A DNA stretch of 8,473 nt from a bacterium (lineage in GTDB: Bacteria > JAHJDO01): NCBI GenBank assembly GCA_030652805.1, contig JAUSPT010000090.1:1-8473 (forward strand), given 5' to 3'. Below the pieces are notes generated by a model that was not told the origin of the DNA, did not search any database, and was given only the letters and a program-made list of their open reading frames with translations. Below are positions 240 through 8,334 of this stretch, piece after piece (positions within the stretch are counted from its first letter, which is position 1; each line of letters begins with the position of its first letter). The position numbers were made by a program, and so were the translations under genes.

Positions 240-3200
240 ATGACTCGCAGGATGGTTCCTTATGATGGAAATAGCGCTGTAGCGCATGTAGCACATGCAA
301 CTAATGAAGTAATTGCAATATATCCAATTACCCCTTCTTCTGCAATGGGTGAAATTGCTGACGGGAAATCTGCAAAAGGAGAAAAAAATATCTGGGGAAC
401 AGTGCCAGTCGTTGTAGAACTCCAATCAGAGGGAGGAGCATCCGGGACAGTTCACGGCGCACTTACTACAGGCGCGCTTACTACAACATTTACAGCATCC
501 CAGGGCCTGCTTCTTATGATCCCAAATATGTATAAGATTGCAGGGGAATTGTGTTCAACAGTATTTCATATAGCTGCTCGCTCCATCGCATGCCAGGCAC
601 TGTCTATATTTGGAGACCATACAGATGTTATGGCAACCAGAGCGACAGGATGGGCAATGCTTGCTTCCGGGAGCGTGCAGGAAGCAATGGATTTTGCCCT
701 GATAGCTCAGGCAGCAACCCTGGAAGCCAGAGTTCCTTTTCTGCATTTCTTTGAAGGCTTTCGCATTTCGCATGAAATACAAAAAATAGAGGAACTTACA
801 CCTGAGGATATGCGAGCTATGATTGATACTAAATTAGTTAGGGCACACAGGTTAAGAGGCCTTTCTCCCGACCGGCCCCAGCTTCGAGGAACTTCTCAGA
901 ATCCAGATGTGTTTTTCCAGGGACGCGAGAGTGTTAATAAGTATTATAATGATTGTCCTGGAATTGTCCAAAAAACAATGAATAAGTTCGCTCAGATAGT
1001 AGGACGACAGTATAAGCTGTTTGATTATATTGGGGCTCCTGATGCTGAAAATGTGATTGTGATAATGGGTTCCGGAGGAGAAACAGTTCATGAAACCGTT
1101 GAATACTTGAATGCCAAAGGTGAAAAAATTGGAGTTATAAAAGTTCGCCTTTATCGGCCATTTGACGTAGCAGCATTTGCGTCTATTCTACCAAATACAG
1201 TAAAAAGAATAGCTGTTCTTGATAGGACAAAAGAGCCAGGAAGCCTTGGAGAGCCTTTATATGAAGATATTCGTACAGCAATTGGCGAGGCAATGGAGAG
1301 AGGATTGATTAAATTAGATGGATATCCTTTAATCATTGGCGGACGCTACGGTCTTGGTTCTGCGGAATTTAATGGAGCAATGGCTAAGGGAGTTTTTGAT
1401 AATCTTCTTAAGACTAAACCCAAAGATCATTTCACTATTGGCATTGAAGATGACATTACTCACACAAGTCTGGAATATGACCCATCATTCAGTTCCGAGA
1501 AAGATGTGTATAGGGCTATGTTTTATGGGCTTGGTTCTGACGGGACAGTTGGCGCTAATCATAATTCCATTAAAATCATAGCAGAAAAAACAGACAATTA
1601 TGCTCAGGGATATTTTGTCTATGATTCCAAAAAGGCAGGCGCTGTCACAGTTTCGCATCTTCGATTCGGCAAAAAAACTATAAGAAGCCCTTATCTGATT
1701 TCAAAAGCAAATTTTCTTGCATGTCATAATTTCACATTTCTAGAAAAGTACGATATGCTTAAGTACATAGTTGATGAAGGCACCTTTCTTCTAACATCAG
1801 AGTATGATAAAAATACTGTGTGGGAAAAGTTGCCTCCAAAAGTACAAAAACAAATTATAGATAAAAACCTTAAGTTCTATGTTATAGATGCAGTCAAGAT
1901 TGCCTCAGAACTTGGGTTAAGCACACGTATTAATACAATAATGCAGACTGCATTCTTCTTGATTTCAGACATCCTTCCTAAAGAAACGGCTATTTCCGCA
2001 ATTAAGGAATCAATAAAGCGGACATATGGCGAAAAGGGAGAGAAAGTTGTTAATATGAACACTCAGGCTGTTGATGCAACTGCCGATAATATTCAGGAAG
2101 TAGAAGTTCCTCACTCTTTCAAAGGACAGGTGGTTGAGAAGCCTACTGTGGCTGATGATGCACCTGATTTTGTTAAAGAGGTTACTGCAAGGATAATAAG
2201 ACGAGAAGGAGAAAGTATAAAGGTCTCTCAAATGCCATCAGATGGAACCTGGCCCACAGGAACAACTCAATATGAAAAACGCAATCTTGCTATTAACATT
2301 CCAATATGGAATCCAGAAACATGTATTCAGTGTGGAAGATGCTCATTAGTTTGTCCGCATGCTGCGATTCGGCCAAAGATATATAAAAAAGAACTTCTTA
2401 AAGATGCTCCTAAAACATTCAAGCATACAGATTCAAAGCCTTCAAAAGATATGGAAGATTATCAATACACACTTCAGGTAGCTCCCGAGGATTGTACTGG
2501 GTGTGGCACTTGCTTTGAGAATTGTCCCATGAAAAATAAAGAGGCGATTAAAATGTCGCCGCAATCTCCAATAAGGGAAGAAGAAGTGAAAAACTATGCG
2601 TTCTTTCTCAACTTACCAGATACAGCCCCTGATCTTTATAATAGAAACACTGTTAAAGGAAGCCAGTTTATAAAACCTCTTTTTGAATATTCTGGTGCTT
2701 GTGGAGGATGTGGAGAAACAGCATATGTTAAACTGCTTACTCAGCTTTTTGGTGACCGGGCAATTATAGCAAATGCTACAGGATGTTCCTCAATCTATGG
2801 AGGAAATCTTCCTACAACACCATATTGCAAACGTTCGGATGGACGCGGTCCAGCATGGAATAACTCGCTCTTTGAAGATGCTGCTGAGCTGGCCTTTGGT
2901 ATGAGACTGACTGTTGATAAATTCACACAATACGCATATGAACTTGCAGATAGAATTGCAGATGATAATTCCTCGTCAGATGAATTAAAGAATATCATCT
3001 CGAAAATAAAAGATGCTGACCAGTCAATACAGGAAGGTATAGAAAAACAACGAGAACGAGTTGAAAAACTAAAGAATTTATTAAAATCCTGCGCCTTGCC
3101 TGATTGTAAGGAACTTCTTACGGTTTCAGATTATATGGTTAAAAAATCTATATGGGGGATTGGGGGAGACGGCTGGGCATACGATATAGGATATGGCGGG

Positions 3201-3800
3201 CTTGACCATGTTTTAGCTTCAGGGAAAAATGTTAATATACTTGTGTTGGATACTGAGGTGTATTCAAACACAGGAGGACAGTCTTCAAAAGCTACTCCTC
3301 TTGGCGCTGTTGCCAAGTTTGCTGCTGCAGGAAAACCAGTTCCCAAGAAAGACCTTGGACTTATGTTTATGAGTTATGGATATATCTATGTTGCCAAGGT
3401 TGCAGTAGGCGCTGATCCAAACCAGTTGGTCAAGGCGTTTGTAGAAGCGGAAGCTTATAAGGGGCCTTCAATAATTATTGCATACTCTCACTGTATAGCT
3501 CATGGTATAGATATGACACGCGGACTTACTGAGCAGAAGAATGCAGTAGCGAGCGGATACTGGCCTCTTTACAGATACAATCCCGAGCTCACTGACCAGG
3601 GAGAAAATCCACTTATACTTGACAGTAAAGAACCACAGATTCCATTTTCAGATTATGCATATAATGAGAACAGGTACAGAGTCCTGAAGAAGATAGATCC
3701 GAAACGCGCAGATAAACTGATGAAATTCGCTCAGCAAAACGTTACGCAAAGATTCAAGCTCTACAAACAGCTCGCAGAATTGGACTACACTAAAGAATAA
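240..3800 (+). CDS. nifJ: Pyruvate:ferredoxin (flavodoxin) oxidoreductase, single-chain
   Basis: This cytoplasmic enzyme catalyses pyruvate + CoA + oxidised ferredoxin to acetyl-CoA + CO2 + reduced ferredoxin, using TPP and three [4Fe-4S] clusters. At 1186 aa it has the usual length of the fused homodimeric family. Visible domains in order: the pyruvate/TPP-pyrimidine domain with YPITPSS (28-34), E64 and R114, at the positions I recall for Thr31, Glu64 and Arg114 of the Desulfovibrio africanus enzyme; domain II with GSGGET (277-282); the gamma-type domain with GLGSDGTVGAN (430-440); a two-cluster ferredoxin domain with C695/C698/C701/C705 and C752/C755/C758/C762; and the TPP-diphosphate domain with GGDGWAYDIG (975-984) and D1004...SNTGGQ (1009-1014). 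Proximal cluster ligands are C821, C824, C849 and C1085. All catalytic residues I could check are present. panD follows after 47 nt. The direction (pyruvate oxidation or synthesis) and the electron carrier cannot be read from sequence. Confidence 0.97.
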   Translation: MTRRMVPYDGNSAVAHVAHATNEVIAIYPITPSSAMGEIADGKSAKGEKNIWGTVPVVVELQSEGGASGTVHGALTTGALTTTFTASQGLLLMIPNMYKIAGELCSTVFHIAARSIACQALSIFGDHTDVMATRATGWAMLASGSVQEAMDFALIAQAATLEARVPFLHFFEGFRISHEIQKIEELTPEDMRAMIDTKLVRAHRLRGLSPDRPQLRGTSQNPDVFFQGRESVNKYYNDCPGIVQKTMNKFAQIVGRQYKLFDYIGAPDAENVIVIMGSGGETVHETVEYLNAKGEKIGVIKVRLYRPFDVAAFASILPNTVKRIAVLDRTKEPGSLGEPLYEDIRTAIGEAMERGLIKLDGYPLIIGGRYGLGSAEFNGAMAKGVFDNLLKTKPKDHFTIGIEDDITHTSLEYDPSFSSEKDVYRAMFYGLGSDGTVGANHNSIKIIAEKTDNYAQGYFVYDSKKAGAVTVSHLRFGKKTIRSPYLISKANFLACHNFTFLEKYDMLKYIVDEGTFLLTSEYDKNTVWEKLPPKVQKQIIDKNLKFYVIDAVKIASELGLSTRINTIMQTAFFLISDILPKETAISAIKESIKRTYGEKGEKVVNMNTQAVDATADNIQEVEVPHSFKGQVVEKPTVADDAPDFVKEVTARIIRREGESIKVSQMPSDGTWPTGTTQYEKRNLAINIPIWNPETCIQCGRCSLVCPHAAIRPKIYKKELLKDAPKTFKHTDSKPSKDMEDYQYTLQVAPEDCTGCGTCFENCPMKNKEAIKMSPQSPIREEEVKNYAFFLNLPDTAPDLYNRNTVKGSQFIKPLFEYSGACGGCGETAYVKLLTQLFGDRAIIANATGCSSIYGGNLPTTPYCKRSDGRGPAWNNSLFEDAAELAFGMRLTVDKFTQYAYELADRIADDNSSSDELKNIISKIKDADQSIQEGIEKQRERVEKLKNLLKSCALPDCKELLTVSDYMVKKSIWGIGGDGWAYDIGYGGLDHVLASGKNVNILVLDTEVYSNTGGQSSKATPLGAVAKFAAAGKPVPKKDLGLMFMSYGYIYVAKVAVGADPNQLVKAFVEAEAYKGPSIIIAYSHCIAHGIDMTRGLTEQKNAVASGYWPLYRYNPELTDQGENPLILDSKEPQIPFSDYAYNENRYRVLKKIDPKRADKLMKFAQQNVTQRFKLYKQLAELDYTKE

Positions 3801-3847: not shown

Positions 3848-4204
3848 ATGATACTAACAAATGTGATAAAAGCAAAGATTCATAAAGCCACAATTACAAA
3901 AAAGGTGCTTGATTATAATGGCAGCATTGGTATAGACAAAGCGCTTCTTAGAGCAAGCGGGATGATACCTGGTGAAAGAGTGCAGGTTCTGAATTTTCAA
4001 AATGGCGCCAGACTTGAAACATACATTATAGAAGAGAAAGAGAATTCAGGCATAATTGCGCTTTATGGCCCTGCCGCAAAGCGTGGAGAAATTGGCAATG
4101 AATTATGTATTATTTCCTATGCTCTAATCACGAGCGATGAGATACCGAATTTCAAAAGCAAGGTTGTATTCGTAGATAAAAACAACAAGATTGTTACAAA
4201 CTAG
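3848..4204 (+). CDS. panD: Aspartate 1-decarboxylase proenzyme (pyruvoyl-type)
   Basis: This cytoplasmic enzyme decarboxylates L-aspartate to beta-alanine for pantothenate and coenzyme A synthesis. It is made as an inactive chain that cleaves itself between Gly and Ser, the Ser becoming the pyruvoyl cofactor. Here the site is YNGS with cleavage expected between G25 and S26. Other matches to the E. coli enzyme, shifted by one residue, are K10, H12, Y23, R55, T58 and Y59. The length of 118 aa is normal to slightly short, the C-terminal tail being trimmed. The usual NGAAA turn reads YGPAA, so the position of E. coli Asn72 is Tyr73. The start is supported by GGAG at 3836-3839, 8 nt upstream of the ATG. 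The 3' end overlaps comEC by 14 nt. No PanM-like maturation partner is visible, and most bacteria outside the enterics lack one. Confidence 0.95.
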   Translation: MILTNVIKAKIHKATITKKVLDYNGSIGIDKALLRASGMIPGERVQVLNFQNGARLETYIIEEKENSGIIALYGPAAKRGEIGNELCIISYALITSDEIPNFKSKVVFVDKNNKIVTN

Positions 4205-6362
4205 TCCTCTTATATACATCACTCTCCTATTTATTGCGGGCATATTGCTTGAGACGTATTTACATATTCCTCTATTATATAAAGCAATATGCGTCCTTGT
4301 TCTTCTTCCAGCAGGAATAATCTGCTTTAGAAAGAAAAGGATTCCCAATATTCTGGGGATAATCCTTCTTTATTGCCTAACGATCCCAATAAGCATGATG
4401 TATACTGAAATCTACTCATCTTTTCATCAACCAAACCTCCATAGCCACTTCTACAATACCAATGCTGAGATTCAAATTAAAGGCATAATAATAAAAGACC
4501 CTGTAAGCCGAAGATTCTATACGAATATTGTTATATCTCCTGAGCAAATTAAGGGGTTGCAAACCCCTAGAGGATTAATTCTTGTTAGAGTAAGCTCTTG
4601 CAATCTTAATTTTAAATACGGTGATAAAGTTCAGGTGTTTGGAAAACTTTCTCGTCCATACTGGGACGGGAATATAGGAACATTCAACTATAGAAAGTAT
4701 CTGGAACGGCATCACGTATATGGAGTAATGAAGATAAAAGATGCAGGGAATATAAAAATTATTGCCAGGAATGAGGGGAATTTTATTATTGGCAAAGCAC
4801 TTACTTTAAAGAACATGATAAAAATGATCAATAAACGAAGTTTACCTGATCCTCAGGCTGCGATGCTGAACGGGATTCTTCTGGGCATGCGGGAGGATAT
4901 ACCACAACAGATTTTTGATATGTTCAGAAAGAGCGGCATAGTACATATTCTTGCAGTATCAGGTCTTCATGTTGGTCTGATTCTTTTTATGTTCTGGGGA
5001 TTTTTAAAACTATGCAGAGTTCCAAAAAAGGCCGCTGCACTTATCCTGATATTGCTGGTTACTTTGTATTGCATGGTTACAGGCATGCGGGATCCGATAT
5101 TCCGTACAACTATAATGGCTTTAGCAGTATTGGTGGCTATTATAATCGACAGGGAGCAGAATCTTTATATCAGCATGTCGTTAGCATGTCTTGTGCTTTT
5201 ATTTATCAATCCATATAGCTTGTTTAATGCTGGTTTTCAGCTCTCTTTTATAGCTACATTGGGAATTATTTGTCTTGCTCCCATACTGAAAGGTTCCCGT
5301 TTTTTGTTTATTGCCTTTGCAGTGTCTCTATCAGCCCAGATAAGCGTTATGCCGATAGTTGCATATCACTTTAACTATCTATCCTTATGGAGTGTTTTTA
5401 CTAATATCGTAATACTTCCAGCTGTTGCCTGTATATTGGCACTTGGATTGCTCGCATCTGTATTTGGAATGTTATGGATTAAACTTGCCTATATCTTCAG
5501 TATGCCAAATTGGATTCTGCTGACAATACTATTAAAATTAATAGAATTTTTCTCATCAATTCACCTCATGTATTTTGAGGTACAAAAGCCATGTATTACA
5601 GATATCATTGGATATTACACATTAATTGCGTTTGCTTTATATGCATTTTATAACGGTATGAAAAACAGGAAGACATTATATGTCTTTGTGCTTATTTTAT
5701 TAATTCTATTTTTATTTCCAAGAATAAAGAGCAATTCCATTGAGATTGTTTTTCCGCATTCTCCAGACGGAGATATAGCGCTTATAAAGCTTCCCTGCGG
5801 ACGGACTCAAAATAAAATCATGCTTATAACCAGTGATAGCAATAAATTTAATAATGTTGAAAAAGTAATTCAACCACTTCTATGGGCAAAACATATCTCA
5901 AAAATCGACTATCTGTTCTTGAATAGAGTAAGCGATGATCATCTAGGCACAGTTCGGGATTTATCAAAGAACTTTGATATTAAACAAGTTCTAGATATTG
6001 CGCAGTCCAAAAACTCCTTTACATACAAGAACTTCCTTGAATTCATTAAAAACACTGGAATCGGTTATGAAAACATTAATCATGAAAAATCCATTCTGAA
6101 ATCTTCCGGAATAGATTTCAGGATGCATAACGGTAATCTCAAGCTTCGCATTATGCCTAGCAATATAGAGCTTTTAATCACACCCGATTGTATGCATACA
6201 ATAAATATTAACGGTAGAAAAATCCTGATTTATCAACGTAAGCCTTCTGTCATAAAACATATTCAGGATAAAGATATCTATTACACAGACACAGATGGAG
6301 CAATTTCAATAAAAATAAAGAATAATAGAGTCAATATATTATGTTCAAAAAAATCCAGCTAA
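4191..6362 (+). CDS. comEC: ComEC/Rec2 DNA-uptake channel with degenerate MBL domain
   Basis: This inner-membrane channel carries single-stranded DNA into the cytoplasm during natural transformation. The 723 aa are family-typical. Three N-terminal membrane segments (about 7-24, 30-46, 53-69) precede an OB-like DUF4131 region with NIGTFNYRKYL (161-171). The Competence domain has HILAVSGLHVGL (252-263), GMRDPIFRTTIM (298-309), GFQLSF (348-353), MPIVAYHF (387-394) and a conserved N...P near 405-410. The last membrane segment is about 496-510. The C-terminal metallo-beta-lactamase-like part (about 515-723) looks inactive. DVGQGD is replaced by HSPDGD (523-528), THxxxDH by NRVSDDH (578-584), and no HHGS block exists, although the terminal TDTDGAI (699-705) survives. 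The start is TTG 4191 with only a weak ribosome site. The frame closes upstream at TAG 4173, and the first in-frame ATG (codon 69) would remove all three leading membrane segments. It overlaps both neighbours, suggesting translational coupling. Confidence 0.92.
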   Translation: MLQTSPLIYITLLFIAGILLETYLHIPLLYKAICVLVLLPAGIICFRKKRIPNILGIILLYCLTIPISMMYTEIYSSFHQPNLHSHFYNTNAEIQIKGIIIKDPVSRRFYTNIVISPEQIKGLQTPRGLILVRVSSCNLNFKYGDKVQVFGKLSRPYWDGNIGTFNYRKYLERHHVYGVMKIKDAGNIKIIARNEGNFIIGKALTLKNMIKMINKRSLPDPQAAMLNGILLGMREDIPQQIFDMFRKSGIVHILAVSGLHVGLILFMFWGFLKLCRVPKKAAALILILLVTLYCMVTGMRDPIFRTTIMALAVLVAIIIDREQNLYISMSLACLVLLFINPYSLFNAGFQLSFIATLGIICLAPILKGSRFLFIAFAVSLSAQISVMPIVAYHFNYLSLWSVFTNIVILPAVACILALGLLASVFGMLWIKLAYIFSMPNWILLTILLKLIEFFSSIHLMYFEVQKPCITDIIGYYTLIAFALYAFYNGMKNRKTLYVFVLILLILFLFPRIKSNSIEIVFPHSPDGDIALIKLPCGRTQNKIMLITSDSNKFNNVEKVIQPLLWAKHISKIDYLFLNRVSDDHLGTVRDLSKNFDIKQVLDIAQSKNSFTYKNFLEFIKNTGIGYENINHEKSILKSSGIDFRMHNGNLKLRIMPSNIELLITPDCMHTININGRKILIYQRKPSVIKHIQDKDIYYTDTDGAISIKIKNNRVNILCSKKSS

Positions 6363-7333
6363 TAATCTTAACAGGTGCGCTTTTAAGCTTTATACCCTGT
6401 CATAAACATATTGGAGCTAATAGGACTGAAAGCCCTTTACTCAAGGATTATGATTCTATTTCCGCATATTTTGGCCCAAAAGAGAATCTAAGTGCGCAAT
6501 TAATAAAATTGATAAATCTATCTGAAAAAAATGTCTATGGCGCATTTTATAATTTGGAGCTTATTAAGGTTGCTTCTGCTTTGATAGATGCGAAAAACAG
6601 GGGAGTAAAGGTGCATTTAGTGATGGATAAAGAAAGAATAAATAGTCCAGGATCCCAGTATGCACTATTATCCAAACATATTAATATAAAGGTTGCAAAA
6701 CAGCCGAGAGGCCTTATGCATAATAAATTTTGTGTATTTGATAATAAAATTGTATGGACAGGGTCTTATAACCCTACTTACAATGGCACATATTACAATA
6801 ACAATAATGTAGTTGTTATAAACTCGAAAGTGCTGGCAGAAGATTTTATAGAGGAATTCCGCAGGATTTCCGGCTCTTTGGATTACAAAGACCACAGACG
6901 ACAGACCACAGAGGAGAAAATAGTAGCCTTTTTCTCAAAAAAAGATAATTGCAAACAGAAGATAATTCAGCTGCTGAACAATGCTGAGGTGAGTATCTGT
7001 TTTGCAAGCTTTATTTTTACAGATAAAGACATAGCAAAAGTTATTATATCCAAACATAACAAAGGCATAAAAATAACAGGTGTGATGGAAAAAGGCATGG
7101 ATAGTTTCTGGAACATGTTCAGCTTTTTCCGTCATGTAGGCATTGATGTGAAATGGGACAAGAATTATTCTCACCAGATGCATCATAAAATTTTTCTGAT
7201 AGATAAAAGAATAATAATTACAGGTTCCTTTAATCCGACATTTAGCGCTCATAAACTGAATTGGGAAAATATAATTGTTATACAAGATGCGAAATTAGCC
7301 GCACAGTTTATGGATGAGATAAAAAACCTTTGA
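6341..7333 (+). CDS. Exported phospholipase D-like protein with two HKD motifs
   Basis: This is a PLD-superfamily phosphodiesterase; the family includes phospholipases, cardiolipin synthases and non-specific nucleases. The 330-aa chain has an N-terminal signal-like segment, MFKK followed by a hydrophobic stretch to about residue 18. C20 is preceded by FIP, which does not fit a lipobox. Two homologous halves follow, each with a complete HxKx4D motif and downstream GSxN: H127/K129/D134 with GSYN at 141-144, and H281/K283/D288 with GSFN at 295-298. Both halves continue as TGSxNPT...N..VVI...LA..F..E, showing an internal duplication in which both half-sites form one active centre. It lacks the long two-helix N-terminus of typical cardiolipin synthases, which favours a periplasmic hydrolase or nuclease. 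The ATG lies inside comEC (22-nt overlap) with only a weak AGAG ribosome site, so it is probably translated by coupling. Its substrate is unknown; the position after comEC makes DNA a reasonable candidate. Confidence 0.9.
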   Translation: MFKKIQLIILTGALLSFIPCHKHIGANRTESPLLKDYDSISAYFGPKENLSAQLIKLINLSEKNVYGAFYNLELIKVASALIDAKNRGVKVHLVMDKERINSPGSQYALLSKHINIKVAKQPRGLMHNKFCVFDNKIVWTGSYNPTYNGTYYNNNNVVVINSKVLAEDFIEEFRRISGSLDYKDHRRQTTEEKIVAFFSKKDNCKQKIIQLLNNAEVSICFASFIFTDKDIAKVIISKHNKGIKITGVMEKGMDSFWNMFSFFRHVGIDVKWDKNYSHQMHHKIFLIDKRIIITGSFNPTFSAHKLNWENIIVIQDAKLAAQFMDEIKNL

Positions 7334-7386: not shown

Positions 7387-8334
7387 GTGAAAAAATACAT
7401 AGCTTTTTCTGTAATATTAATAATTTGTTTATCTGTACTCGGATGTAAAAAAAGTGATATAGGAACAGTAGATGCAAGTAAGAAAATAGCAGAATTGAGA
7501 AGGGCTACACAAAAAAGACAGGAAGAGAAAAAAGAAGAGACAAAGATTGAGATAGAATTTATAAGAATTACAAAAGCCTATGAATACGATTCTGCTCCTG
7601 CTTTTTCCCCGGATGGCACTAAAATAGCTTATGTATCGTATCAGGATGATGTGCAAAATATATGGATTGTAGATTCCGAAGGAAAAGAAGAACCAAAACG
7701 CATAACTAATACAGCAACACTGGACAATCGTCCAACCTGGAGTTATGACGGTAAGTCAATAATCTTTAGTTCTGCAAAGCTGAATGATAATGCAGAGCCT
7801 AAACTGTGTATGGTTAACAGTGATGGGGCTAATCTTCGACAACTAGGCAAAGGAGTACAGGGATATAACCCTTCATGTTCGCCAGTTAATGGACAAATTG
7901 TGTTTATTTCTCAGAATAATCTATGGATAATGAATGGGATAGATGATGAGCAGCCTAAATACGTTACTACAAGAGGATATCATGATTATCCGTGCTGGAT
8001 GGATAATGCTAAAAAGGTGCTTTTTTTCAGCGATAATGACTTGCACTCAATGAACATTGATAAAGAAGACAGCATATGTTTAACAAACACTGCATGGAAT
8101 AGCTTCCCAAGTGTTTCATTAAAAACAAACAAGATAGCTTTTATATCTAATAGAAGTGGGAATTATGATCTTTGGATCATGAATAGTGATGGCACTAACC
8201 CAGTTCAGATTACAGATGACAAATATAATGAATTATATCCATGCTTTTCCTCTGATGGAGACAAAATTGTCTTTCAATCGGATAGAAGTGGAAACTTTGA
8301 TATATGGGTAGCTAAGCTGCCTGGAAATATGTAA
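7387..8334 (+). CDS. TolB-like six-bladed beta-propeller lipoprotein
   Basis: This 315-aa predicted envelope lipoprotein starts at GTG. MKK leads into a hydrophobic core and SVLGC with the lipidated Cys at 20, an acceptable lipobox. A short charged, helix-prone linker (about 29-50, rich in Lys, Glu and Arg) follows. Then come six PD40/WD40-like TolB repeats, recognised by a Pro-x-(hydrophobic)-S..G..I.F.S core, with Pro at 71, 116, 162, 202, 241 and 285. Blades commonly continue as LWIMNSDG or IWIVDSEG. Spacing is 39-46 residues, giving one full propeller and little else. True TolB has an extra N-terminal alpha/beta domain and is soluble in the periplasm. That domain is missing here, and no tolA/tolQ/tolR/pal genes are seen, so I do not call it tolB. 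Such propellers usually bind proteins or glycans; DPP-type peptidase propellers are related, but no hydrolase domain follows. The gene lies 53 nt after the PLD gene. Confidence 0.85.
   Translation: MKKYIAFSVILIICLSVLGCKKSDIGTVDASKKIAELRRATQKRQEEKKEETKIEIEFIRITKAYEYDSAPAFSPDGTKIAYVSYQDDVQNIWIVDSEGKEEPKRITNTATLDNRPTWSYDGKSIIFSSAKLNDNAEPKLCMVNSDGANLRQLGKGVQGYNPSCSPVNGQIVFISQNNLWIMNGIDDEQPKYVTTRGYHDYPCWMDNAKKVLFFSDNDLHSMNIDKEDSICLTNTAWNSFPSVSLKTNKIAFISNRSGNYDLWIMNSDGTNPVQITDDKYNELYPCFSSDGDKIVFQSDRSGNFDIWVAKLPGNM

Follow-up and report, generated by a model that had tools for sequence, protein, structure and literature searches.

The window, as we call the whole 8,473-nt stretch of DNA analyzed here, carries a comEC homolog followed on the same strand by a gene for a predicted exported protein of the phospholipase D (PLD) superfamily with two HKD half-sites (Table 1). 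The ATG of the PLD gene sits 22 nt within comEC and in a different frame, in agreement with an earlier note on this DNA, which had the PLD-type gene beginning inside comEC. The start codon of comEC is uncertain, and the TTG at 4191 was taken; for the TolB-like gene a GTG start is proposed, with the longest open reading frame (ORF) beginning at TTG 7330.

Table 1. Features of the window, with two nuclease fusion genes from other contigs in the last rows
Feature	Position	Strand	Basis or remark
Putative pyruvate:ferredoxin oxidoreductase-type gene	240-3800	+	Name taken from sequence
panD	3848-4204	+	
comEC: DUF4131/OB, Competence channel, degenerate C-terminal MBL-like domain	4191-6362	+	ORF, Pfam
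ComEC Competence (channel) domain	4875-5642	+	PF03772, E 2e-60
ComEC C-terminal remnant of MBL nuclease domain	5715-6359	+	hhalign, 215 columns
Degenerate motif II NRVSDDH	5922-5942	+	Alignment to intact C-terminal domains; NRVS[DN]DH in five genus species
comEC end/PLD start overlap, 22 nt	6341-6362	+	Sequence; congeners show the same overlap
Putative exported double-HKD PLD-superfamily protein, predicted nuclease, 330 aa	6341-7333	+	PLDc_2 x2, 2.5e-46
PLD N-terminal export signal or membrane anchor, ending at conserved Cys20	6341-6400	+	Hydropathy, sequence
First HKD half-site HNKFCVFDNKIVWTGSYN	6719-6772	+	Residues 127-144
Second HKD half-site HHKIFLIDKRIIITGSFN	7181-7234	+	Residues 281-298
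TolB-like beta-propeller lipoprotein, 3' of PLD	7387-8334	+	PD40 2.9e-31; lipobox LSVLGC
Exported staphylococcal nuclease (SNase) with C-terminal ComEA-like HHH_3 (fusion)	G000:C34:7695-8567	-	Other loci L242, L243, L244
SNase-HHH_3 fusion	G088:C279:2993-3862		65% identical across the two phyla

Like canonical ComEC/Rec2 (PMC8579336, PMC12455585), the window ComEC combines an OB (DUF4131) domain (PF13567; 5e-18) with the Competence channel domain (PF03772; 5e-59), and no Lactamase_B domain was detected in it by Pfam. Against the full-length ComEC model TIGR00361 it scores 144.6 bits, below the cut-off of 190, with a match that ends inside the degenerate C-terminal domain (CTD). A profile-profile comparison (hhalign) nevertheless aligns the CTDs of the five genus members with 23 intact ComEC CTDs at a probability of 98.7% and an E value of 1.7e-16. 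Motif I reads PHSPDGD instead of LDVGQGD, and motif II reads NRVSDDH instead of SHPHDDH (consensus H-x-[DH]-x-D-H), the first His being replaced by Arg and the second ligand by Ser while the last Asp-His is retained. Motif IV is TPD instead of SGD, keeping the Asp, and the HHGS stretch is deleted in the ComEC of all five genus species. Since other ComECs need the motif II metal ligands both to cut DNA and to support transformation (PMC8579336), a working MBL nuclease in the window ComEC is, from its sequence, very unlikely, which upholds the earlier proposal that this domain is inactive. Purifying selection on the CTD remnant persists (dN/dS, 0.19-0.33), so that it is probably retained for structure or DNA guidance.

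Both HKD half-sites of the PLD protein are exact matches to HxK(x)4D(x)6GSxN, and the residues H127, K129, D134, G141, S142, and N144 of the first and H281, K283, D288, G295, S296, and N298 of the second are invariant across 36 aligned relatives; the two complete half-sites described earlier thus stand. The protein begins with a basic segment followed by a hydrophobic stretch up to a Cys that is kept across the genus, which makes export very likely and accords with the separate export signal that had been claimed for it. The signal ends in F/L-I/L-P-C, a noncanonical lipobox, and has no conserved AxA; as a Pro precedes the Cys, the protein is no more than a possible lipoprotein. Among homologs of the Aerophobota clade, the corresponding residues are LCGC in two and FSGC in one. 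The mature protein is basic (pI 9.4), and pairwise dN/dS values of 0.12-0.29 show purifying selection on its gene.

Several lines of evidence bear on the activity of this protein. In profile searches its nearest solved relatives are the Nuc endonuclease (1BYR; 2e-32), MitoPLD/Zucchini (4e-30), and NucT (3e-16), with phospholipase 7e0m (2e-10) and PLD3/PLD4 ranking behind them, and it carries GSxN together with a downstream xEN signature, as in MitoPLD. The curated NucT models are its best NCBIfam matches, at 52 to 71 bits, well below the curated cut-offs of 211 to 351 for these equivalogs (PRK13912). An AlphaFold2 model built from 36 sequences (pLDDT 89.2, pTM 0.85; an earlier model from 6 sequences had pLDDT 71) has a fold of two domains, like that of PLD phospholipases and of PLD3 and PLD4, single-stranded DNA (ssDNA) exonucleases with two HKDs. 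A structure search with this model returned phospholipase D 7e0m at Z 33.5 and PLD3/PLD4 at about 33, and since the two rank equally, the fold alone cannot discriminate between them. This structural ranking would suit a phospholipid enzyme (a phospholipase or a cardiolipin synthase) whose tie to comEC has to do with the membrane or is an accident of gene order, and we saw no clear separate HKD cardiolipin synthase in genome G000. We nonetheless regard this as improbable, given the profile ranking, the MitoPLD-like signature, and a score of 32 bits for the cardiolipin synthase model TIGR04265 (cut-off, 290), lower than for the NucT models. A nuclease is thus our best guess for the PLD protein from its sequence. 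It contains no detectable EndA-type beta-beta-alpha-metal domain; the Pfam matches are to PLD-type domains, plus a sub-threshold match to TrmB. Two anti-phage candidates were rejected as well: DISARM DrmC (57.7 bits against a cut-off of 133, with panD, comEC, and the TolB-like gene forming the wrong context) and DpdK (similarity below cut-offs, wrong context).

The overlap of comEC and the PLD gene is not restricted to this genome, and its recurrence makes it more than chance. It was read in each of the five species of the window genus, and a PLD scan across an 85k-species genome set added two further contigs, one labeled Omnitrophota, in which comEC overlaps a PLD gene (L072, L080). These belong to a second phylum, separate from the window genus by kinship labels, in which five of seven genomes gave matches and all five ComEC-bearing genomes carry the overlapping pair, with overlaps of about 14 to 50 nt. 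Three of the second-phylum ComECs end directly after the channel (504 to 527 aa) and have no MBL domain, and two keep a shorter C-terminal remnant devoid of MBL motifs (668 aa, and 604 aa where cut at a contig edge). Across the 10 genomes with the linked genes, the ComEC nuclease domain is therefore degenerate in seven and absent in three. The flanking genes differ, being panD and the TolB-like gene in the genus and nadD or a GH5-like gene in the second phylum, and the comEC-PLD pair is thus the only conserved unit. The TolB-like gene also lies 3' of PLD in congeners wherever the contig continues (L003, L004, L005), and it is absent at the comEC-PLD loci of the second phylum.

When the 80 nearest PLD loci were searched with a ComEC profile, comEC lay next to PLD, besides three window-genus contigs, only in L072 and L080. 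With a joined ComEC and PLD profile run on 289 genomes, the pair was adjacent, among the matches listed, only in the window genus and the second phylum; few candidates were scored per genome in this survey, and weaker cases may be missed. A search of the available literature found no paper on an overlapping comEC-PLD pair.

In the PLD tree, the genus, the second phylum, and Aerophobota form one clade of 16 sequences (SH-aLRT 98), separate from the PLDs of Poribacteria/Chloroflexi and of archaea. Aerophobota carry PLD at loci apart from comEC, and their full-length ComECs (509 to 545 aa) have no MBL domain, so that within the PLD clade that holds the linked genes every recovered ComEC is without a working CTD. 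The ComECs of the same three lineages group weakly (support 80), which would be expected if the two genes had become neighbors once, had been kept in this order in two lineages without any functional link, and had seen the MBL domain decay independently. Nonintact ComEC CTDs are indeed common in bacteria, occurring in 26 of 49 lineages sampled. We consider such inherited gene order very improbable all the same, as the overlap has outlasted the turnover of surrounding genes across two phyla and the PLD protein has kept invariant catalytic sites under purifying selection.

The earlier note had also suggested testing whether the presence of PLD correlates with loss of the ComEC nuclease motifs, and as a general rule this was rejected. 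In a sample of 49 bacterial lineages, in which the window genus was counted once and PLD was scored as present where a double-HKD protein occurs, the MBL motifs of ComEC are intact in 5 of 10 lineages with PLD and in 18 of 39 without it (Fisher p=1). Co-occurrence with an intact ComEC, raised earlier as evidence against a functional link, is accordingly found in the wider double-HKD family, Poribacteria among them, and is not found in the PLD clade with the linked genes. ComEC was not detected in the four archaeal genomes searched, all of which have PLD. The intact ComEC of Poribacteria, these archaea, and the null result over 49 lineages together indicate that the double-HKD proteins are exported enzymes of general use, and that linkage to comEC arose on one or two occasions. 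With only one or two origins of linkage and nonintact CTDs in 26 of the 49 lineages, the complementary loss in ComEC and gain of PLD is not statistically strong and is suggestive; the weight of the case is in the conserved overlap and the graded decay of the MBL domain.

This breadth of the family, mostly unlinked to comEC, would also suit a general extracytoplasmic nuclease for nucleic-acid scavenging that shares an operon with a DNA transporter and has no strand-degrading role in transport, and Helicobacter pylori NucT acts in purine salvage with a mild transformation phenotype (PMC5714352). Such a role strikes us as rather unlikely here, since the comEC overlap is conserved in two phyla despite changing neighbors and the PLD clade coincides with nuclease-less ComEC.

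Other components of DNA uptake are present in the genus. Full matches to DprA were obtained in four of five genomes, and several secretins and several PilT-type ATPases are retained. In G000, G002, and G003, the best match to a ComEA-like HHH protein is a fusion with an exported SNase domain, and the fusion recurs in the second phylum, intact in G088 and in pieces in G087. At 65% identity between the phyla, the SNase-HHH fusions are far more alike than the linked PLDs (about 35 to 40% identical), which suggests horizontal transfer of the fusion. This protein is the chief rival nuclease to PLD, or else it acts with PLD as a further step in one pathway. It joins a nuclease to a DNA-receptor-type domain in intact frames, and one may ask whether DNA uptake in these cells relies on it for the nuclease step, with PLD serving another role. 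We judge this distinctly unlikely, as its gene is unlinked to comEC and the fusion was not found in G059, G060, G085, G004 (90% complete), or G001 (62% complete), all of which have the comEC-PLD pair.

That two groups of uncultured bacteria, unrelated to each other, share this overlap, with a ComEC whose own nuclease domain is broken or missing, suggests, short of proof, that the PLD protein took over cutting from ComEC. As we picture it, PLD would be an extracytoplasmic, probably membrane-anchored nuclease from the Nuc/NucT/Zucchini side of the PLD superfamily, produced together with ComEC by overlapping translation. Having two HKD sites in one chain, a single polypeptide would suffice to form the active site, for which Nuc and NucT need a dimer. 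The enzyme would act on DNA as it arrives at the external opening of the ComEC channel, its most likely task being to cut the non-transported strand, and would thereby stand in for the decayed MBL nuclease domain of this ComEC. We infer the nuclease activity, the action on this strand, and the physical partnership with ComEC. That PLD is a nuclease recruited to ComEC, made by overlapping translation, and a replacement for the decayed domain seems to us evenly poised between right and wrong. The more specific proposal of a dedicated split-function DNA import module in at least two phyla, in which a two-HKD nuclease, metal-independent as reported for NucT, removes the non-transported strand, is tentative and somewhat more apt to fail than to hold. 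The split-function uptake module of the earlier note is partly supported: gene overlap, the second phylum, and degenerate or absent CTDs speak in its favor, and the lack of a family-wide association and the second exported nuclease speak against it.

Comparable divisions of labor are known. The ComEC of H. pylori is without an MBL domain, and this species has no EndA (PMC12455585); its NucT is a periplasmic PLD-family protein that prefers ssDNA (PMC5714352). NucT resembles the window PLD in being exported, in its HxK(x)4D(x)6GSxN site, and in the state of its host's ComEC, but it has a single HKD and dimerizes, whereas the window protein has two HKDs per chain, overlaps comEC, and scores far under the NucT cut-offs (71 of 297 bits). 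In Streptococcus pneumoniae the ComEC CTD is probably inactive and a separate EndA is present (PMC12455585). This membrane nuclease beside a probably inactive MBL domain parallels the window pair (PMC12455585, PMC8579336); unlike the window protein, EndA is a nuclease of the beta-beta-alpha-metal type with no relation to PLD (PMC5714352). By analogy, the comEC-PLD pair would work like the S. pneumoniae and H. pylori cases, the new elements being a two-HKD enzyme and a gene overlapping comEC. Among other relatives, Nuc and MitoPLD/Zucchini differ from the window PLD as single-HKD dimers with other biological roles. PLD3 and PLD4 are 5'-exonucleases that share the two HKDs per chain and act on ssDNA, yet they are eukaryotic, about 15% identical, and have no link to DNA import. 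Canonical ComEC/Rec2 itself has an active MBL nuclease, whereas the window ComEC and its congeners have lost the metal ligands, and the function is proposed to have moved to a second protein.

Close to half of ComEC proteins are without a nuclease domain, and how their hosts remove the non-transported strand has been named as an open question (PMC8579336). The comEC-PLD pair, in which a nuclease-type gene overlaps a comEC with a dead or missing nuclease domain in two phyla, offers a concrete candidate for this step. If true, it would take the hint from H. pylori NucT further, adding to a mild phenotype a partner that is coupled genetically.

Double-HKD proteins of the PLD family are also carried by many DPANN archaea (Woesearchaeota and Nanoarchaeota; loci within L071-L139). 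Three Chloroflexota genomes (G074, G078, and G072) hold an unlinked double-HKD protein, and their ComECs (L193, L194, and L195; 810 to 825 aa) have a full-length C terminus in which canonical MBL motifs were not found. Weak ComEC-profile matches in L067 and L068 look like TrkA-type proteins and were rejected as ComEC. In these Aerophobota-like contigs, labeled Clostridia, the gene that lies within a few bases ahead of PLD is proB-like (glutamate 5-kinase) and not comEC (L067, 6738-8921; L068, 6510-8915).
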